NCBI GenBank assembly: GCA_030649165.1
Contig: JAUSGG010000152.1
Location: 1-36,789, forward strand
Length of the DNA: 36,789 nucleotides
Source: Armatimonadota bacterium
Lineage (GTDB): Bacteria; Armatimonadota; UBA5829; JAUSEB01
Direction: 5' to 3'
Part shown: positions 28,148-36,789 of the stretch, in pieces
How the letters are laid out: every line of letters begins with the position of its first letter
Numbering within the stretch: the first letter of the stretch is position 1
Made by a program: the position numbers and the translations under genes
Notes under the pieces: model-generated
Databases searched by the model: none
Seen by the model: only the letters and a program-made list of their open reading frames with translations
Told to the model about the DNA's origin: nothing

Positions 28148-28189
28148 TTGACCTAAGTCAAGTTTCCCGTGTAGGTTATGTGGTATGAT
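28148..28189 (+). promoter_or_regulatory. Class II FNR/DNR-type promoter
   Basis: The palindrome TTGACCTAAGTCAA (28148-28161) has TTGAC half-sites with a 4-bp spacer, the layout bound by FNR/DNR/NNR-type members of the Crp family. A -10 box TATGAT is at 28184-28189. If transcription starts at 28196, the palindrome centre is at -41.5, exactly the class II activator position, and no good -35 is present. The first downstream genes are the moaA fragment and a Crp/Fnr regulator, suggesting autoregulation in response to low oxygen or nitrogen oxides. Confidence 0.8.
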
Positions 28190-28221
28190 TTAGCCCTAAT
28201 GAAGCGAGAGGGTTAGCAACC

Positions 28222-28461
28222 ATGAAGCCGCCCGGCGCTTCGAGCTTTGGGGCGCGCGAGATCAAGTATCTCCGTCTTTCCATAACCGATAGCTCCGATA
28301 TGCGGTGCGGATACTGTGTGCCCCATCGGACCTCCATCGCGCATGTCGCCGACCCACTCTCATCTGAGGAAATCGTTCTTCTCGTCAACGCCTTCGCCAA
28401 GAACGGAGTGACTAAAGTCAGGTTTACGGGGCGAGCGGGACCGGAGCGCGAATGGAGATGA
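28222..28461 (+). pseudogene. moaA: Truncated moaA (GTP 3',8-cyclase) fragment
   Basis: A 79-residue frame clearly related to the N-terminus of MoaA: IKYLRLSITDSSDMRCGYCVP and EEIVLLVNAFAKNGVTKVRFTG align with the family, which then continues GGEPLLR. Here the frame leaves the family at that glycine (RAGPEREWR, stop), so about 250 residues are missing. The first cluster cysteine is also replaced by serine (DSSDMRCGYC instead of a TDRCNFRCxYC-like motif), so it cannot bind the radical SAM cluster normally. It is driven by the FNR-type promoter, and its last 10 bp overlap the start of the crp-like gene. It may survive only as a translated leader that couples translation of the regulator. A working moaA must exist elsewhere if the molybdoenzyme is active. 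Confidence 0.75.
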
Positions 28462-29219
28462 AACCAGCGACACTCGAAGTAGGGAGCCGCGTGGCTCTTC
28501 TGAAGCGGAATGCATTCTTCCGCGGTTTGGACGACGGAACCCTCGAAGGGATCGCGCCCAAGTTCTTCCAGCGCGAATACAAGCGGCGGGACTACGTCTG
28601 GTTCCAGGGCGACCCGTCCGACGCTTTTGTCGTAATCAGGGACGGCTACGTCAAGATCGTCAAGCATTCAAAGGGCGGCAAAGACGTGCTTCTCGAAGTG
28701 CTGGGGCCTGGAGACGTGTTGGGCGCAGTCGCGCTTCTGGAAGGAAGGCCGTATCCGGCTACGGCCTGCGCGCTCAGCAAAGCTTCATTGCTCTTGCTAT
28801 CGCGCGACGAGTTTCTCGGTGTGATCGAGCGCAATCCGGCGGTCGTCACGCAGGCCCTGGTGGCTGTAGGTTCGCGGCTGAGGTACGCGCACGAAATGAT
28901 GCGCCAGTTCGCAACAGAGTGCGTAGAGTCGCGCGTCGCCAGCCTTTTGCTTATACTGGGGTCACGCGCGTTCGACGAGCACGGAGAGCGCGTCGTCCTG
29001 GACGTAAGACTCACCAGACGTGACATCGCCGACATGGTGGGGGCCGCGCTCGAAACTACGATTCGGCTCCTCAGCCGGTGGGAGAAAAACGGTGTTGTCA
29101 GTCGTGACCGCGGTCACATAGTTTTGCTTGACCTGCCGACGCTCAGAAAAATATCTTCGGAAGAAAGTTACCCGAAAGAATATGATCCAAGTCATATTGC
29201 ATCTGATACCAGGCGCTAA
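28452..29219 (+). CDS. Crp/Fnr-family transcriptional regulator
   Basis: A 255-residue regulator with an N-terminal cyclic-nucleotide-binding-like beta roll (about 15-130; FVVIRDGYVKIVKHSKGGKDVLLEVLGPGDVLGAVALLEG), a dimerisation helix (130-170) and a C-terminal winged helix (about 170-235). The recognition helix LETTIRLL has Glu201 and Arg205 at the positions that read the TTGA half-site in FNR, in agreement with the two palindromes around this gene. The N-terminal cysteine set of FNR is absent, so it does not carry an FNR-type cluster; a DNR/NNR-like NO or haem sensor is more likely. GGAG lies 5 nt before the ATG, which overlaps the moaA fragment by 10 bp. It probably controls the respiratory operon downstream. 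Confidence 0.92.
   Translation: MEMKPATLEVGSRVALLKRNAFFRGLDDGTLEGIAPKFFQREYKRRDYVWFQGDPSDAFVVIRDGYVKIVKHSKGGKDVLLEVLGPGDVLGAVALLEGRPYPATACALSKASLLLLSRDEFLGVIERNPAVVTQALVAVGSRLRYAHEMMRQFATECVESRVASLLLILGSRAFDEHGERVVLDVRLTRRDIADMVGAALETTIRLLSRWEKNGVVSRDRGHIVLLDLPTLRKISSEESYPKEYDPSHIASDTRR
29179..29198 (+). promoter_or_regulatory. Second palindrome, probable FNR-type site before the respiratory operon
   Basis: AATATGA-TCCAAG-TCATATT is a perfect inverted repeat at 29179-29198. Its core ATGATCCAAGTCAT (29182-29195) matches 10 of 14 bases of the palindrome at 28148-28161, with the same N4 spacing. It lies inside the last codons of the regulator gene. A weak -10 (TAAACT, 29217-29222) would place the site near -41. 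Inferred target of the Crp/Fnr protein. Confidence 0.6.
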
Positions 29220-29252
29220 ACTGATAGTAAGGAGCCGGGCGTCCATACTTAC

Positions 29253-29372
29253 ATGCGGGAGATGGTGAAAGATGGAACGACCGGAGCGACTTGCCCCCAC
29301 GGCAGCGCCGCGCTGACCGGCTTGTCGGAGCTTGTGCGAGCGACTCCAGTGGGAAGATGGATTTGTGAGTGA
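29253..29372 (+). CDS. Possible 39-residue small protein
   Basis: An open frame starting with ATG at 29253 sits between the regulator and the flavin/Fe-S oxidoreductase gene, and its TGA (29370-29372) overlaps the GTG start of that gene (29365). The product begins MREMVKDGTTGATCPHG and ends LVRATPVGRWICE. It has two cysteines, no membrane segment, and a CPHG that could bind metal or haem. The GGAG upstream is too far away, so the case rests on the overlap and on the lack of another use for this stretch. It may be a coupling leader. Confidence 0.4.
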   Translation: MREMVKDGTTGATCPHGSAALTGLSELVRATPVGRWICE

Positions 29373-31275
29373 TCTGCGAGCGATGGATTCCACGGACAAA
29401 TACTACGTAGAAATCCCGGATTACGACTACTGGAAGCGGCAGATCGAATGCCAGTACGCGTGCCCGGTTCACACCGACGCGCGCGGTTACATACGCGCAA
29501 TTGCGGATGGAGATTACGAGACCGCTTACCGGATAGCGCGTGGGCCGAACCCACTTGCGTCGATGTGTGGTCGTGTCTGTGGAGCGCCGTGCCAGGCCGC
29601 GTGCCGAAGAGGAAGCCTGGACGCTCCACTGGCTATTCGAGCGCTCAAGAGGGTGGTTACGGAAAGGTTCGGACCCGAAAGCAAAGGCGGAAGTGAGGTC
29701 GATTTCCCCAGGCAACAGGCGGCGCACGCTCCCGCCGGACCTTGTCTCGACTCCGCGGAGGTCTACCATCTTCTCGACTACCTGAAGACGGCAAATATTC
29801 CTAAGCCTTCAGGGGAGCGCGTGGCGATTGTTGGATCGGGGCCGGCCGGCCTTGCGGCTGCCCACGACCTGGCTCTACTCAGCTTCAGACCGACGATATT
29901 CGAAATGGAGCCCGTGCCCGCCGGTATGCTTTACCTCGGCGTGCCGGAGTACCGCCTGCCCAGGGACCTGATCCGCGCCGAAGTGGCGGTGATAGAGGCG
30001 CTTGGCGTCGAGATACGCTGCAATACGCAAGTGGGTAGGGACGTTTCTCTAGCCGAACTCCGCAAGGATTTTGCCGCGGTGATCATTGCCGTAGGGGCCA
30101 AGCGCTCACGCCAGCTTGATATTCCCGGCGCGAGCGCGGACGGCGTTCTCGGAGGAATCGATTTCCTCCACGACGTGGCACTTGGCAACCCTCCAAAGCT
30201 TGGAGCCAGAGTGGTAGTCGTCGGCGGGGGGAGCGTGGCGTATGACGTCTCACGGACGGCCCTGCGCCAGGAAGAGTCCGACGTGTCGAGAACGGCGCTC
30301 CGGCAGCCATCCGTGAGGGAAGTCCACCTCTGCTGCCTGGAATCGCGAGAGGAGATGCCCGCGGACGAGGTAGAAGTTTTCGAGGGAGACGAGGAGGGAA
30401 TACAACGGCGCAACCGCCTCGGTCCGAAGGAAATCCTGGTGGAAACTCGTGACGGGCGACTGGTTGTCAAGGGTGTCCTTTTCCAGCGGTGTCTGTCGGT
30501 TTTCGACGAAAACGGCCGGTTCGCGCCTAAGTTCGACGAGAACGACATTGTGACCATCGACGCGGACACGGTGATCCTGGCTATCGGGCAGGCTACCGAC
30601 CTGTCTTTCGTCGACACCGAGGCCGATGGAGTCGAGTTGAACGAGCGGGACCGGTTGAAAGTGGACCTGTATTCACTGTCCACGACGTTCCCCGGTCTGT
30701 TCGCCGCGGGCGACGTGGCGTACGGGACTAAGCTGATGATAGACGCCATCGCCAGCGGCAAGAAGGCCGCGCTCTCGGTCTACGAGTATCTTACGGGCAA
30801 GAAGATCGGCGCGGAGCAGGCGCAGGCCCACTTTCCACTTCCCGATTACGAGCGTGAGGCCGGATACGAGCGGCTGCCGGCGGTCCAGGTTCCGACCAGC
30901 CGGGTCGAGGAACGAATAACAAGCTGTATAACGCCGGTTGAGATCGGCTATTCGGAAGAGGACGCCAGACTGGAAGCATCCCGCTGCCTGGACTGCGGCA
31001 TCAATACGATTTTCGACGGTGATAAGTGTATCCTGTGCAACGGATGCGTGGACGTCTGTCCGACGCTTTGCTTGAAGATTATCCCGGTGAGCTGGCTTGC
31101 TCCCACTCCGGATGTCGAAGCGGCGGTCCAAACCCGCTACTCGGAAGGGGAAGACGAAGGATCGGCGATCATCAAAGACGAAACGCTTTGCATTCGCTGC
31201 GCGCTCTGCGAGGAACGCTGCCCGACCGACGCGATCACCATGGAACGCTTCCAGTTCGCGGAGAGTTGGCGGTAA
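29365..31275 (+). CDS. GltD-like FAD/NAD(P)H oxidoreductase with N- and C-terminal Fe-S clusters
   Basis: About 636 residues. The N-terminal Fer4_20-type region has C29/C33 (CQYACPVHTDARGYI) and C68, C72, C76, C80 (MCGRVCGAPCQAAC). The middle is a glutamate-synthase small-subunit-like flavoprotein: FAD site VAIVGSGPAGLAAA (from about 153), NAD(P)H site VVVVGGGSVAYDV (about 280-292) and LFAAGDVAYGTKLMIDAIASGKKAA. The C-terminus adds two 4Fe-4S motifs, CILCNGCVDVCP and CIRCALCEERCP. It should move electrons between NAD(P)H and ferredoxin or a membrane partner. Residues about 293-314 contain an exact 9-residue duplication, DVSRTALRQ. GTG 29365 is preferred (GGGAAG about 8 nt upstream) over TTG 29332 and ATG 29383. 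Rieske and cytochrome b genes follow, suggesting that it feeds that chain. Confidence 0.88.
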   Translation: MSDLRAMDSTDKYYVEIPDYDYWKRQIECQYACPVHTDARGYIRAIADGDYETAYRIARGPNPLASMCGRVCGAPCQAACRRGSLDAPLAIRALKRVVTERFGPESKGGSEVDFPRQQAAHAPAGPCLDSAEVYHLLDYLKTANIPKPSGERVAIVGSGPAGLAAAHDLALLSFRPTIFEMEPVPAGMLYLGVPEYRLPRDLIRAEVAVIEALGVEIRCNTQVGRDVSLAELRKDFAAVIIAVGAKRSRQLDIPGASADGVLGGIDFLHDVALGNPPKLGARVVVVGGGSVAYDVSRTALRQEESDVSRTALRQPSVREVHLCCLESREEMPADEVEVFEGDEEGIQRRNRLGPKEILVETRDGRLVVKGVLFQRCLSVFDENGRFAPKFDENDIVTIDADTVILAIGQATDLSFVDTEADGVELNERDRLKVDLYSLSTTFPGLFAAGDVAYGTKLMIDAIASGKKAALSVYEYLTGKKIGAEQAQAHFPLPDYEREAGYERLPAVQVPTSRVEERITSCITPVEIGYSEEDARLEASRCLDCGINTIFDGDKCILCNGCVDVCPTLCLKIIPVSWLAPTPDVEAAVQTRYSEGEDEGSAIIKDETLCIRCALCEERCPTDAITMERFQFAESWR

Positions 31276-31311
31276 GCGGTGAGTGGCTTTTGTTGAGGAG
31301 GGTGACACCCT

Positions 31312-31779
31312 ATGTCAGACAAAAAGAACGAGAATGGCATCAGCCGGAGGGAGTTCTTGACCAAAGGAGCGCTTGGCTCGTTCCTTGTTGCGATGGGCGG
31401 CGCGACGGTAGGAGGGTTTGCCCTCCCTAAGCCCACCGTGTCGCCTGGGCCGAGCCGCAGGTACAAACTGGGAGATCCGGGAAAGTTCCCTGTCGGAACG
31501 GCCATGAAGATGGACAAAGAGAACATCTTCTTGTTTCGCGATGTTGAGGGTTTCTATGCGATAACCGCGGTTTGTACGCACCTGGGTTGCATTGTCGTCA
31601 GAGTGGATGACGGCTTCGCGTGTCCTTGTCATGGGTCGCGCTTTGCGCCGGATGGCCATGTCGTCGAAGGCCCGGCGCCGAGAGGCCTTTTGTGGCTTGA
31701 GGTGTCTCGAACGCCGGATGGAGGGGTTATGGTTGACGCCGACGTGGAGGTCGACCTGGGGACGAAGCTTGTGGTGTAG
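31312..31779 (+). CDS. Tat-exported Rieske [2Fe-2S] protein
   Basis: A 155-residue Rieske protein. The N-terminus has a twin-arginine signal SRREFLTKGA with a hydrophobic stretch that probably stays as the membrane anchor. The cluster motifs are C88-T-H90-L-G-C93 and C104-P-C106-H107-G-S; C93 and C106 are the expected disulfide. In the complex it takes one electron from quinol at the Qo site of cytochrome b and passes it to a cytochrome c. GGAGG precedes the ATG by about 10 nt. It is followed after 49 bp by cytochrome b and then a multihaem cytochrome c, a complete alternative bc-type complex. Confidence 0.96.
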   Translation: MSDKKNENGISRREFLTKGALGSFLVAMGGATVGGFALPKPTVSPGPSRRYKLGDPGKFPVGTAMKMDKENIFLFRDVEGFYAITAVCTHLGCIVVRVDDGFACPCHGSRFAPDGHVVEGPAPRGLLWLEVSRTPDGGVMVDADVEVDLGTKLVV

Positions 31780-31828
31780 AATGTCGGTAGTTGCGCGTCG
31801 CTTTCAAAGTGACCTCGGAGGAGTCTGA

Positions 31829-33370
31829 ATGGAAAAACCCGCGCTGACGCAGTTCATAGATAACTTGAAATCGGTTCCCGACGCGGCTCGGCGGGCGTTC
31901 TTGAAGAACGGGCTGCCTGAGTCCGAGCGCGAGCGGTCGCAGATGAGTTTTCACAACTTTTTTCTGCACATGCAAAGCGTCAGGACGCACAAGCACAGCC
32001 TGCGTTGGACATACACCTTGGGCCTCGGCATTATTGCCACCGCGGCGCTCATCATCCTCACGGCCACGGGTGTGCTGCTGATGGTATACTACAAGCCGTC
32101 AACCGAACTGGCGTACTATTCCATGAAGGACATCAACTACGTTGTTTTCGGCGGGCGTATCGTGCGGAACGTCCATCGGTGGGCGGCGCACTTGATGGTC
32201 GTCGCGGCGCTGCTTCACATGGCGCGGGTATTCTACACCGGCTCCTACCGTCGACCGCGTGAGGTGAACTGGCTGATCGGACTGGGCCTTCTGGTAATGA
32301 CTCTTGCGCTGAGCTTCACCGGGTACATTCTCCCTTGGGACCAACTCGGCTACTGGGCGGCCACTATTGGGGCCAACATTGCTCAGTCGCCCCGTGAAGT
32401 CACCGACGCGTTTGGAATCACCCACGCAGTCGATGTCGGAGGGCTTGGGAAGCAGATGCTCCTGGGCGCGAGCTTCGTGGGCGAAGACGCCCTTCTAAGA
32501 TTCTACGTGTTGCACTGCGTCGTCCTTCCGGGGTTGCTCATGACGCTCCTCGGCTTGCACTTCTGGCGGATCAGGAAAGACGGCGGCCTTTCCAGACCGG
32601 AGAGCGTGGACAAGCCGGGCGCCCCCGATTACAAGCCGGTCCAGCCGGGAATTTTCAAGCCGGGCACGGAGAAGACCTACGGGTTGATGGCTCTTGTAAA
32701 GGGAAGCAAGCCGACGGTCGGCACGGCCCCCGAGAACACGGTTATGTCCTGGCCGCACCTGATGTACGCCGAGGCGGCGGTCTTTGCGCTCACTATGGCG
32801 ATCACCCTTGTCCTGGGCTATTTCCTGAACGCTCCGCTCAAGGAAATAGCGAACCCGATGGTGCCGGAAAACCCGGCGAAGGCTCCGTGGTACTTCCTGG
32901 GTCTTCAGGAATTGGTCTCATACTCCGCGTTCATGGGCGGTATCGGGATTCCGACCATAACGCTCGTCAGCCTGGCATTGATCCCGTTTCTGGACAGGAA
33001 GGGTTCCGATGTCGGCATCTGGTTTGGCGGCGCGGCGGGAAAGAAGGTATTTTGGCAATCCGTGCTTTTTGGCGCGATGGTGACCGTCGGAATGCTGGCC
33101 CTAACCATCACGCAAGGGTGGCTCAGAACGTGGATTCCAAACATCCCTCAGCTCGTGATCACAGTCGTGAACCCCGGGACGGTTCTTGTGGGTCTTTACG
33201 CCTGGTGGTCGTTGTCTAACATAAAGCGGCACAACTCGATCCGAATGGGAGCGGTAGCGATGTTCACGGTCTTCCTGGTCGGCTTCATTCTGCTGACTTA
33301 TGTCGCGGCGATTCACCGCGGACCGAACTGGCATTTCTACTGGCTTCATAGCCAGTGGCCTCCGCACTAA
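31829..33370 (+). CDS. Cytochrome b (b6/subunit IV fused), Rieske/cytb complex
   Basis: A 513-residue membrane protein with the cytochrome b core and C-terminal subunit IV-like part in one chain. Haem ligands are H116 and H130 (VHRW...LLHM) in one helix and H229 and H244 (VLHC...GLHF) in another. The second pair has 14 residues between histidines, the b6-type spacing; bc1 enzymes have 13. The Qo motif is A352-P353-W354-Y355 instead of PEWY, so the catalytic Glu is Pro, a change associated in some lineages with low-potential quinones. The KxG-type loop ends in a long insertion (about 250-305) before the C-terminal half. GGAGG is upstream. It oxidises quinol, probably menaquinol, with the Rieske protein. 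Confidence 0.95.
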   Translation: MEKPALTQFIDNLKSVPDAARRAFLKNGLPESERERSQMSFHNFFLHMQSVRTHKHSLRWTYTLGLGIIATAALIILTATGVLLMVYYKPSTELAYYSMKDINYVVFGGRIVRNVHRWAAHLMVVAALLHMARVFYTGSYRRPREVNWLIGLGLLVMTLALSFTGYILPWDQLGYWAATIGANIAQSPREVTDAFGITHAVDVGGLGKQMLLGASFVGEDALLRFYVLHCVVLPGLLMTLLGLHFWRIRKDGGLSRPESVDKPGAPDYKPVQPGIFKPGTEKTYGLMALVKGSKPTVGTAPENTVMSWPHLMYAEAAVFALTMAITLVLGYFLNAPLKEIANPMVPENPAKAPWYFLGLQELVSYSAFMGGIGIPTITLVSLALIPFLDRKGSDVGIWFGGAAGKKVFWQSVLFGAMVTVGMLALTITQGWLRTWIPNIPQLVITVVNPGTVLVGLYAWWSLSNIKRHNSIRMGAVAMFTVFLVGFILLTYVAAIHRGPNWHFYWLHSQWPPH

Positions 33371-33438
33371 GTCTGCTTATCTGGGGCGTTTTGTGAATCG
33401 ATTGGTAGTTACAGATAGTTTATTGGAGGATGAGACGC

Positions 33439-34869
33439 GTGGCTGACGGCCTTCCGGACCGGGACATATCTCGGGGAACAAAATGGCTGCTGCTGGTCTC
33501 CAGCCTGGTAGTGATAGCCATTATGGTGGGAGAGGCGAGGTCCAATCTCTCGGCGGAATGGCGACGCCATCAGAAAGAATACCACAAGCTACTCCTGGCG
33601 AAGGCGTTGGATGAGGCAAACAAAGAGACTGCCAGGTCGTTCAATATCGCGCTCCAGCAGGTGGTCGTTCCTGAATTGGGCGTGACCGACCGATGCGTTT
33701 CGTGTCATACTGGGATCGACAACCCCCATATGGCTGACGAGAAGCAGCCTTACCGTTTGCACCCGGGAACATTTCTGAAGGACCACCCCGTCAGCAGGTT
33801 CGGCTGCGCCATTTGCCATCGCGGGCAGGGAGCCGCGGTCAACAATGCTGACGCTAAAGCCGTCCATGCCTACTGGGATTACCCCATGCTGCCGGGCAAA
33901 ATGGTCCAGGCGTCGTGCGGTCAGTGCCACGACCCGAAGGCGATGAAGGGGCGCGGCGGCGATATCCTCGCGCGAGGCGCGCGGTTATTCGAGTCGAGCG
34001 GATGCCGGGCCTGTCACAAGCTGGGAGGGCGCGGCGGCGCCCTGGGGATTGCCCTGGACGATGAGGGGCGGCGTATTATCCATCAACTTCCGCTCACTGA
34101 ACTGAAGGGTGAGCACACTGTTTGGAACTGGCTTGCCGAGCATTTCCGCGACCCGCGGGGCGTTGTCCCGACGAGTCAGATGAGAAATCCAACGCTTACG
34201 GAGCCGGAAATCGAGGCGTTGACCACATACATTCTGTCGCTTTCCAAACTGACGATTCCGGAAGATTACATCACGCCGGACAAATACGAGCAGAAGTACG
34301 AAGCCCTTCGTCCGGGCAGGCCGAACGGAGCGGAACTCTATAGGCAGTTTTGCTTCTCGTGTCACGAATCCGGGACGTACAGCCGGTGGGACAAGATTTC
34401 CGGGCGGTTCATCCCCGCTATCAGGGGCAAGGCTCTGGCGGCCTCGCCGGCGGGCTATCTGAGGCGAAACATCGAGCTCGGACGCGATGGGACGCAGATG
34501 CCCGGGTGGCGCAAGTCGGGTGGCGGGCTGAGTAATAGCGAGATCGGCGCATTAGAGGCGTATATTCGCGGCGGCGTCAAACCTGTGGAGATGACGGCAT
34601 CCGCGCAAGGACGTGGAAACGCCGGTCGCGGGAGGGCTCTGTTCGCCCAAAACTGCCGGGGCTGCCACGGGTCGGGTGGAAAGGGCGGAGTTGCGCCGGC
34701 GCTGGGGAGCGCCACGTTCCTAAGCGTCGCGTCCGACGCGTTCATACTATCTACCATTAAGAACGGCAGGCCCGATACGGCGATGCCCGCTTTCCAGCGG
34801 GCCGGAACGGCCGGCTTGACCGACGTCGAACTGACCGACTTGCTGGCTTACATTCGGTCGATGAAATGA
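33439..34869 (+). CDS. Membrane-anchored hexahaem cytochrome c
   Basis: About 476 residues. One N-terminal hydrophobic helix (WLLLVSSLVVIAIMVG) anchors the protein with the rest outside the cytoplasm. Six CXXCH motifs are present: CVSCH, CAICH and CGQCH form an N-terminal three-haem module, then CRACH, CFSCH and CRGCH each start a monohaem class I-like domain with a methionine ligand candidate (SQMRNP, TQMPGW, TAMPAF). The true start is GTG 33439: GGAGG at 33425-33429 is 9 nt upstream of it but directly touches the ATG at 33430. It probably accepts electrons from the Rieske protein and gives them to the molybdoenzyme encoded 10 bp downstream. Confidence 0.94.
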   Translation: MADGLPDRDISRGTKWLLLVSSLVVIAIMVGEARSNLSAEWRRHQKEYHKLLLAKALDEANKETARSFNIALQQVVVPELGVTDRCVSCHTGIDNPHMADEKQPYRLHPGTFLKDHPVSRFGCAICHRGQGAAVNNADAKAVHAYWDYPMLPGKMVQASCGQCHDPKAMKGRGGDILARGARLFESSGCRACHKLGGRGGALGIALDDEGRRIIHQLPLTELKGEHTVWNWLAEHFRDPRGVVPTSQMRNPTLTEPEIEALTTYILSLSKLTIPEDYITPDKYEQKYEALRPGRPNGAELYRQFCFSCHESGTYSRWDKISGRFIPAIRGKALAASPAGYLRRNIELGRDGTQMPGWRKSGGGLSNSEIGALEAYIRGGVKPVEMTASAQGRGNAGRGRALFAQNCRGCHGSGGKGGVAPALGSATFLSVASDAFILSTIKNGRPDTAMPAFQRAGTAGLTDVELTDLLAYIRSMK

Positions 34870-34879
34870 GGAGCGGAAC

Positions 34880-36789
34880 ATGGATGATGTAGACAAGCCG
34901 GACCAGAGCGGTATAGAGACGGAAGCACGGACAAGAAAGGTGAAACTCTCCAGGCGGCAGTTTCTGAGCGCCGGCGCCGCGTCTTCTATCCTTGCGCTTC
35001 TGCCGGGCTGCCTGCGAAAGCAAGCCCCAAACCTGACAGGACTGCAGGGCGAGTTTGATCCGCTCCGAACCTACCCGTATCGAAGCTGGGAAGACCTTTA
35101 CCGTAACCAGTGGAAGTGGGACAAGGTCGTCAGATCGACGCACTCCGCGAACTGCACCGGCTCCTGCTCGTGGAACGTCTTCATCCGTGATGGGATTATG
35201 ATTCGAGAGGAACAGGCCGCGGACTTTCCTCGAATCAACGAGGATTTGCCGGACTACAATCCGAGAGGTTGCCAGAAGGGCGGCTGCTTCGTTGAGTACG
35301 TCTACGGCGCCCAGAGGCTGAAACGCCCTCTGATCCGCGTCGGGGAACGCGGCGAGGGGAAGTGGCGCGAGGTAAGCTGGGACGATGCCTACGAGCATAT
35401 CGCCAACAAGCTCTTGGACAATATCTACGATTATGGCCCGGACACTAACACTTTCTTCAGCGTTATCCCCGCTATGAGCCCTGTGAGCTTTTCGGGCGGG
35501 GCGAGGTTCGCGCACCACATCGGCGGCGTTTTCTGCTCCTTCTACGATTGGTACTGCGACCTCCCGCCAGGCGAGCCGCTCACCTGGGGTGTACAGACGG
35601 AGGCCTGCGAGTGCGCGGACTGGTTCAACTCCAAGTACATCGTCCTTTGGGGGTCGAACATATCGCAGACGCGCATCCCCGACGCCCACTTCGCCTACGA
35701 GGCCAGGTACAACGGCGCGAAGATCGTCGCCATAAGCCCTGATTTCAACTCGAGCTGCATACACGCGGACCTATATTTCAAGATCAACCCGGGCACGGAC
35801 GCGGCCCTCGCTCTCTGCGCCGCAAGGATCATAATCGACGAACACCTTTACGACGAGCATTACGTGAAAGAGCAGACCGACATGCCTCTGCTGGTCGTCG
35901 AGAAGACCGGACGGTTTCTGCGCGAGAAGGATATGAAGGCCGGGGGCAAGGATGACGTATTCTACGTCTGGGACTCACGGGCCGATAGAGCCGTCCAGGC
36001 TCCGGGGAGTATGGGGTCCGGAGTTAAGTCGATCGGGTTGAAAAGTATCGACCCGGCGCTGGAAGGCCGGTTCCAGGTCAAGCCGGCGAACGGCAAGACG
36101 GTGGATGTCGTTCCGGTGTTCGAGCGGCTCAAAGGGAAGCTAGATGACTACGATTTGAGCGGCGTGGCCAAGTTGACCGGTCTCCCCGCGCATGAAATTC
36201 AGCAATTCGCCAGGGATATGGGAAACCGGAAGCCGGCGATGATAATCCATGGCGCGGGGCTGAATCACTGGTTCCATAACGACTTGATCAATCGTTCGTT
36301 GATGCTCTTGGTTGCGCTTACTGGAAACGTCGGGAAGAACGGCGGCGGGTTCAACCACTACGTCGGACAGGAGCGCATGTGGCCGGAGCGCGGGTTCAAG
36401 CAGCTCGCGTTCCCAAAGGGTCCGAAGAAGCAGCGATTCCAGAACATGACGCTCTGGACTTACATGCACTCGGCTACTAAGGACCCGCACCTTTATGACG
36501 GGAAGCCTATCGAATGGTATATCGAACAGAGCGTCAAGAACGGCTGGATGCCGCTCTACCCTAAGAACCGCAAACAAAAGCCCAGGGCGCTGATCGTCTG
36601 GCGGGCCAACTATCTCAACCAGGCAAAAGGCAACGAGTTGATCCTCGAATCGCTCTGGAAGGACCTCGACCTGATTGTGGATATCAATTACCGCATGGAT
36701 ACGACGGCGCTCTACTCCGATGTGGTCCTCCCGGCCGCAAGTTACTACGAGAAGACGGACATCAACACAACCGACTGCCATTCGTTTGT
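34880..36789 (+). CDS. narG: NarG-type nitrate reductase catalytic subunit, Tat-exported (partial)
   Basis: The gene runs off the right edge; 636 codons are visible of an expected 1000 or more. A twin-arginine signal SRRQFLSAGAA is followed by LLPGC, a possible lipobox (C44). The Fe-S ligands are H88-x3-C92-x3-C96 (HSANCTGSC) and C131 (PRGCQKG), the NarG pattern. The predicted molybdenum ligand is D223 in SFYDWYCDLPP, and the following TWGVQT and SQTRIPDAHF segments match NarG closely. Unlike E. coli NarG, it lacks the long insertion before SW-x-E/D-A and carries an export signal, as in archaeal and other outward-facing enzymes. Other type II DMSO-reductase relatives (selenate, perchlorate) cannot be fully excluded. 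The start ATG has GAGGAG upstream. NarH and a chaperone are expected beyond the window. Confidence 0.92.
   Translation, partial: MDDVDKPDQSGIETEARTRKVKLSRRQFLSAGAASSILALLPGCLRKQAPNLTGLQGEFDPLRTYPYRSWEDLYRNQWKWDKVVRSTHSANCTGSCSWNVFIRDGIMIREEQAADFPRINEDLPDYNPRGCQKGGCFVEYVYGAQRLKRPLIRVGERGEGKWREVSWDDAYEHIANKLLDNIYDYGPDTNTFFSVIPAMSPVSFSGGARFAHHIGGVFCSFYDWYCDLPPGEPLTWGVQTEACECADWFNSKYIVLWGSNISQTRIPDAHFAYEARYNGAKIVAISPDFNSSCIHADLYFKINPGTDAALALCAARIIIDEHLYDEHYVKEQTDMPLLVVEKTGRFLREKDMKAGGKDDVFYVWDSRADRAVQAPGSMGSGVKSIGLKSIDPALEGRFQVKPANGKTVDVVPVFERLKGKLDDYDLSGVAKLTGLPAHEIQQFARDMGNRKPAMIIHGAGLNHWFHNDLINRSLMLLVALTGNVGKNGGGFNHYVGQERMWPERGFKQLAFPKGPKKQRFQNMTLWTYMHSATKDPHLYDGKPIEWYIEQSVKNGWMPLYPKNRKQKPRALIVWRANYLNQAKGNELILESLWKDLDLIVDINYRMDTTALYSDVVLPAASYYEKTDINTTDCHSF

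Follow-up and report, generated by a model that had tools for sequence, protein, structure and literature searches.

By what route could electrons from the quinol pool reach a molybdenum (Mo) enzyme that is exported across the membrane, and what would this enzyme reduce? The question is raised by the last genes of a 36,789-nt stretch of Armatimonadota DNA (assembly GCA_030649165.1, contig JAUSGG010000152.1; 'the window' hereafter is this whole stretch). A preliminary description, made from the letters of the window, had presented them as an FNR-controlled nitrate-respiration island in which quinol electrons pass through a Rieske/cytochrome b pair and a hexahaem cytochrome c to an exported NarG-type enzyme, with a GltD-like protein as an additional electron entry. 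The six genes claimed, from a Crp/Fnr regulator to the Mo enzyme, were all found on the plus strand with short spacers, and open reading frames (ORFs) and hidden Markov model (HMM) searches agreed with the claimed motifs and order. The block is best read as one respiratory unit of eight genes, GltD-Rieske-cytochrome b-hexahaem cytochrome c-alpha-beta-gamma-delta. Other contigs of the source genome supply what is missing here, and five of the genes lie in the window as follows.

29332 (or ATG 29383) to 31275, plus strand: GltD-like FAD/NAD(P) iron-sulphur (Fe-S) oxidoreductase, presumed cytoplasmic (Pfam and NCBIfam).
31312 to 31779, plus strand: Rieske [2Fe-2S] protein with a twin-arginine N-terminus (Pfam; best PDB matches 9rk4 and 9rk3).
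31829 to 33370, plus strand: cytochrome b, a b6-type part fused to a subunit IV (SUIV)-like part (Pfam; alignment to Kuenenia).
33430 to 34869, plus strand: membrane-anchored hexahaem cytochrome c with exactly six CXXCH motifs.
34880 to 36787, plus strand: alpha subunit of a type II dimethyl sulphoxide (DMSO)-reductase-family Mo enzyme with a twin-arginine translocation (Tat) signal, truncated by the contig edge.

The window is contig C35 in full, from a genome of 5.48 Mb (99.3% complete), which is why the alpha gene breaks off at residue 636. The same genome holds another copy on contig C112, with a complete alpha of 940 amino acids (aa; locus L002), and the genes for beta, gamma and delta stand at the start of contig C229, this beta being 84% identical to that of the carrier genome G005. 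In this relative, which belongs to the same order, the Rieske, cytochrome b, hexahaem, alpha, beta, gamma and delta genes run unbroken. The hexahaem-alpha stretches of C35 (33886-36787) and C112 (1-2917) are 93% identical in DNA within one assembly and may reflect a recent duplication or a mixture of strains, two cases that look alike because a single beta-gamma-delta set was found in the source genome.

The gene order proved general when a survey was made. Among the 36 loci obtained by scanning genome contigs, GltD-Rieske-cytochrome b-hexahaem-alpha was intact in all 26 with sufficient upstream sequence, and beta-gamma-delta came after alpha wherever the contig went on. Six CXXCH motifs with the same or nearly the same spacing were present in 23/23 complete copies of the hexahaem cytochrome. 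The carriers were mainly metagenome-assembled genomes of Acidobacteriota, with others from Myxococcota, Omnitrophota, Planctomycetota and Armatimonadota and one proteobacterium. The unit is rare: it was found in 2 of 101 relatives, where the remaining matches were to an alpha type of ~830 aa, and at >70% identity in 5 of 396 Acidobacteriota. No flanking gene was universal among the loci, with porin, Rrf2/hemerythrin/RIC and MoaA/MobB genes recurring in some. In the GltD tree the alpha-linked copies did not fall into one clade (six changes); either the modules have switched partners or the signal of this tree is weak. We found no paper describing the eight-gene unit in the open-licence literature, and we regard it as a new combination of two known kinds of system, not as a new kind.

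Several related gene sets were seen alongside. A second Rieske/cytochrome b pair lies on the opposite strand near one eight-gene unit (L056:1-997). In a Planctomycetota genome (G438; L080, 5402-14566), a GltD-Rieske-cytochrome b module (GltD and cytochrome b 57-58% identical, Rieske 48%) is accompanied by 8-haem and 13-haem cytochromes with no Mo enzyme, possibly reflecting another terminal partner. GltD-like relatives also stand beside cytochrome-oxidase-like genes without Rieske or cytochrome b (L105:3242-5233 and L106:12067-14067).

The Mo enzyme is an alpha-beta-gamma-delta member of the type II DMSO-reductase family and not NarGHI. The full-length alpha of the source genome passed the type II model TIGR03479 (1175 bits against a cut-off of 984.75) and failed the narG model TIGR01580 (636 against 1084 bits). 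Similarly, the G005 beta passed TIGR03478 (484 against 480.7 bits) and fell short of the narH cut-off (248 against 524 bits). The G005 gamma is an ethylbenzene-dehydrogenase-type haem-b subunit and delta a TorD/NarJ-type chaperone; they matched TIGR03477 and TIGR03482 below cut-off and PF09459 and PF02613 above cut-off. A search for narI gave no match in the source genome (it was over the cut-off in 3 of 35 genomes). The 27 alphas of the family formed one clade (Shimodaira-Hasegawa-like approximate likelihood-ratio, SH-aLRT, support 99) beside haloarchaeal NarG, PcrA and ClrA and separate from canonical NarG; this tree, made without SerA, DdhA and NxrA sequences, leaves the sister group within type II open owing to unsettled forks and long branches.

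A third system was seen in three other Armatimonadota genomes (G086, G068 and G039; L015, L016 and L017), where an alpha of ~830 aa, whose FS0 His is exchanged for Asp, is clustered with a ~620-aa beta bearing one CXXCH, a Rieske protein and cytochrome b, with a NarK-like transporter nearby. It differs from both NarGHI and the unit in the window.

What the enzyme reduces was approached through its active site, the meanings of the checked positions being taken from PMC8301774. The alpha is of the Tat-exported type with HxxxCxxxC and the Mo-coordinating Asp. Of the 15 sites checked, 14 are as in E. coli NarG in all 27 sequences, and the one difference is Lys/Arg. The His-Cys3 ligands of cluster FS0, the Mo-Asp and the gate Phe/Tyr were matched in 27/27. 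At the position of the PcrA gate Trp all 27 have Glu, and the aromatic perchlorate gate is missing; overall the alpha has NarG-like Glu, Trp and Leu where PcrA has Trp, His and His. These residues favour nitrate as the substrate without proving it. Of the 'NarG-type' label, the outward, nitrate-type enzyme with NarG- or haloarchaeal-type residues was borne out, while the assignment to NarG itself gave way to a separate type II clade, with nitrate as the predicted substrate.

Neighbouring genes point the same way. G005 carries a second, paralogous module of regulator (61% identical), GltD (59%), Rieske, cytochrome b (56%) and hexahaem cytochrome, with the same interface His and LES motifs described below, directly preceding a monohaem cytochrome and then canonical NarG-NarH-NarJ-NarI. 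A narI next to narH with an unlinked partner for the bc complex, which the preliminary description had named as contrary evidence, did not occur in the source genome; in G005 narI adjoins narH and is linked to the module. Several copies are flanked by genes for Rrf2/NsrR-like regulators, hemerythrin or RIC proteins (nitric oxide stress) and MoaA/MobB (molybdopterin), all named from sequence and not by family search. It is improbable, in our judgement, that the Mo enzyme acts instead on another oxyanion such as selenate, chlorate, bromate or iodate. In favour of such a substrate, the alpha scores above the cut-off of the type II model, which takes in enzymes of this sort, and below that of narG, its closest solved structure is perchlorate reductase, followed by NarG, and haloarchaeal NarG itself reduces chlorate too (PMC8301774); on the other hand, the gate residues are those of NarG and not of PcrA, no chlorite dismutase was found in the locus of any copy, and the module is linked to NarGHJI in G005 with nitric oxide-stress genes nearby. 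Perchlorate or chlorate as the substrate was set aside, the gate residues and the missing chlorite dismutase being evidence against it.

A beta-barrel porin family repeatedly adjoins the eight-gene unit (L041, L047, L051 and L052). Judged by its N-terminus, the same family also stands beside a NasA/NapA-like gene with NarK (L017:1436-2836), and it is a candidate nitrate/nitrite porin.

The membrane part of the unit belongs to a known but unusual kind of complex, described to date from anammox bacteria only. Kuenenia stuttgartiensis has two Rieske/cytochrome b complexes, Kuste4569-4574 and Kustd1480-1485, for which bifurcation of quinol electrons with NAD(P) reduction has been proposed, not demonstrated; according to the authors, a favourable partner reaction for Kustd1480-1485 has yet to be put forward (PMC12954380). 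A sequence identical to the crystallised Rieske domain led us to the Kuenenia genome, in which we compared both clusters, assigning the loci from gene order and the residue numbers in PMC12954380. The best solved relatives of our Rieske protein were the two Kuenenia proteins 9rk4 and 9rk3 (E = 6e-23 and 7e-19), with b6f behind at 7e-14, and the GltD-like protein best matched NfnABC (9bov/9bp5), the structure also matched by the Kuenenia NAD(P) reductase (PMC12954380). Identities to Kuenenia were 34-38% for GltD, 37-39% for Rieske and 42-46% for cytochrome b. As judged from these comparisons, the GltD, Rieske, cytochrome b and hexahaem proteins are homologous to both Kuenenia complexes and are not an ad hoc mix.

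His47 of cytochrome b, invariant in the family, aligns with the Kuenenia His proposed to bind a novel interface haem b, and the stretch HxWRx(R/H)KDGG, which places Arg/Lys near this His, is kept as well; haloarchaeal cytochrome b has neither. In GltD, 18 Cys columns are kept in the family, 17 of which are shared with one or both Kuenenia proteins, column 138 being family-specific. The potential-raising Ser of the Rieske protein is present in 23/23 sequences; Phe replaces the Tyr in almost every one of them, as it does in Kustd1480. The GltD motif LES(R/L)xEMPA or a close variant occurs in 23/23 members where Kuenenia and NfnABC have YRRTREEMPA. In Rossmann folds an acidic as against an arginine motif marks the choice between NAD and NADP, and the acidic LES motif in place of the NADP-type arginines suggests NAD over NADP.

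The sequences themselves show which genes are present and in what order, their homology, the export signals, the ligands of the cofactors and the lack of narI. That nitrate is the substrate, that the proteins form a complex, how the electrons travel and which way the NAD site works is inferred from these. The Rieske/cytochrome b core would oxidise menaquinol (or another quinol) at its outer quinol site. The high-potential electron would pass from Rieske to the hexahaem cytochrome and on through gamma (haem b) and beta (Fe-S) to alpha (Mo), where nitrate would be reduced to nitrite outside the membrane. The low-potential electron would move along the b haems, and then by way of the additional haem at the interface of the cytochrome b dimer, into the GltD-like subunit, where its Fe-S clusters and FAD would pass it to NAD+ on the inner side. 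This is how the homologous complexes of Kuenenia have been proposed to work. The potential of nitrate is about +420 mV. With menaquinol at -70 mV (PMC12954380), the downhill half would provide ~490 mV against the ~250 mV needed for NAD+.

We think it likely that nitrate is reduced outside through the Rieske/hexahaem path, a proposal of the preliminary description that gains from the lack of narI in the source genome, the haloarchaeal gene order and the NarGHJI-linked paralogue, nitrate itself being the presumed acceptor. Net NAD+ reduction by the unit is a tentative proposal, to which we give rather less than even chances. The combination of outward nitrate reduction with possible NAD+ reduction by one unit is the reading that we favour, with modest confidence. 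Given the homology to the Kuenenia NAD(P)-linked complexes, the GltD-like protein is probably an electron exit, which makes its earlier casting as an entry the less likely of the two.

A canonical quinone cycle with GltD feeding electrons in is possible and would amount to ordinary outward nitrate respiration as in haloarchaea, with GltD as NADH entry or accessory reductase and no bifurcation to NAD+. The haloarchaeal operon has the same order and yet no GltD or hexahaem cytochrome, and the lack of the haem-cN Cys, which in every family member is Thr or Ser, means that the membrane part is not identical to that of the bifurcation candidate. We nonetheless hold this arrangement to be rather unlikely: GltD is first in the unit at every testable locus, and the family retains the Fe-S ligands of GltD as well as the His of the interface haem and the nearby Arg/Lys, whereas haloarchaeal cytochrome b lacks these last residues and has no GltD beside it. 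Far less probable is a unit running in reverse, in which electrons taken by the Mo enzyme from nitrite or some other donor are raised by the complex to NAD(P)+. Uphill reduction of NAD(P) would fit a subunit of the GltD type and oxidative members (EbdA and NxrA) exist among type II enzymes, but the match to Kuenenia NxrA was weak (254 bits against 949 to PcrA) and the paralogous module stands beside NarGHJI in G005.

Besides the missing haem-cN Cys, other points tell against the favoured combination of nitrate reduction and NAD+ reduction. The alpha does not fall among the NarG sequences proper, and substrates differ from one type II enzyme to another; our tree contained neither SerA nor DdhA. 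The module also adjoins NarGHJI in G005, where the hexahaem cytochrome need not feed the reductase because NarGHJI can accept quinol electrons itself. NrfA was over the cut-off in 0 of 34 carrier genomes, the source genome included, and NirK in 5 of 34, not including the source genome; this distribution gave no clear pattern and was dropped as a guide to the fate of nitrite. The AlphaFold model of cytochrome b hinted, by its helices, at the Kuenenia arrangement of four plus five membrane spans, but its mean predicted local distance difference test (pLDDT) score of 50 was too weak for it to be used as evidence. Finally, the reading is built on the genes of uncultured carriers.

The regulator lies outside the conserved unit. 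Upstream of GltD, the window contains the following features.

28148 to 28161, no strand assigned: TTGACCTAAGTCAA, an Fnr/Crp-type palindrome (single site; 0.06 expected per window).
28222 to 28430, plus strand: moaA remnant, its first ~70 codons (92% nucleotide match to the intact moaA of the relative G001).
28452 to 29219, plus strand: Crp/Fnr-superfamily regulator (Pfam; Cys positions; G005 homologue).

The moaA remnant sits between palindrome and regulator and is broken where the regulator gene now lies; in G001, the nearest relative, moaA is intact at that place (L103:7032-8000). An identical copy of the TTGACCTAAGTCAA palindrome precedes moaA-gltD in G001, and its conservation is not independent because the flanks, too, are highly similar to those in G001 (92% identity). 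Within 500 bp upstream of GltD, TTGAN6TCAA was found at only two sites in 30 loci (P ~0.015, weak), and an Fnr-type box as a general operator was rejected. The regulator, whose 61% identical homologue stands beside the NarGHJI-linked module of G005, has just two Cys (106 and 157), lacks in its sequence the N-terminal Fe-S cysteine cluster that characterises the oxygen sensor FNR, and reached no equivalog cut-off in the HMM search. Control by FNR, with this palindrome and a cysteine-poor regulator as its basis, is not upheld.

On the favoured reading, a favourable partner reaction of the kind left open for Kustd1480-1485 would be encoded here in the same operon. Energy conservation by outward-facing nitrate reductases and the acceptor of the anammox NAD(P)-linked Rieske/cytochrome b complexes are both open in the cited papers, and an operon that joins the two questions across several phyla makes them testable in one system. 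It also hints at a nitrate-respiration route in Acidobacteriota and Armatimonadota that has been overlooked and that searches with narG/narI markers would not pick up. More speculative, and somewhat doubtful at present, is the idea that one conserved operon ties the reduction of nitrate outside the membrane to quinol bifurcation making NADH inside. Nitrate respiration would in that case directly drive NAD+ reduction, and the open terminal acceptor of the Kustd1480-type complex would gain a counterpart, the terminal reductase being exchanged between lineages; the exchanged partners would be the octahaem protein, the outward nitrate reductase, NarGHJI and multihaem cytochromes.

Among known systems, canonical NarGHI shares the active-site residues and the His-Cys3 FS0 motif, whereas the window-type alpha is shorter, Tat-exported, without NarI and below the narG/narH cut-offs. 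Perchlorate reductase PcrAB (PDB 4ydd/5e7o) also has a type II alpha, about as long as the one here and ~48% identical to it, but differs in the gate Trp (Glu here) and a His (Trp here) and in its linkage to chlorite dismutase. Methanoperedens has an outward Nar with an Orf7-type haem-b protein and a proposed quinol route through Rieske/cytochrome b and multihaem c, but its nar and Rieske/cytochrome b clusters are at separate loci, with pentahaem cytochromes and no GltD described there (PMC4683180); related links are Nap with Rieske/cytochrome b in Caldithrix (PMC5317091) and Nar1 with bcc-aa3 in Streptomyces (PMC7931247). Closer are the haloarchaeal pNar operons with narB (Rieske), narC (cytochrome b), narGH, Orf7 and narJ (PMC7754194, PMC8301774), and in Haloferax mediterranei NarC enriches with NarGH (PMC7754194). 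On haloarchaeal plasmids the order hypothetical-Rieske-cytochrome b-small protein-alpha-beta-gamma-delta is that of the window unit, with a Tat-exported NarG, haem-b gamma, TorD-like delta and no NarI, and the alpha is 47% identical; however, GltD, the hexahaem cytochrome and the interface-haem His are absent and the window-type alpha lies outside the haloarchaeal clade, in its own (SH-aLRT 99). The Kuenenia complexes likewise unite Rieske, a b6-like cytochrome b with SUIV, a multihaem c replacing cytochrome f and an NAD(P) oxidoreductase in one cluster (34-46% identity), but in the window unit cytochrome b and SUIV are fused, the haem-cN Cys is lost and a Mo enzyme takes the place of the octahaem protein.

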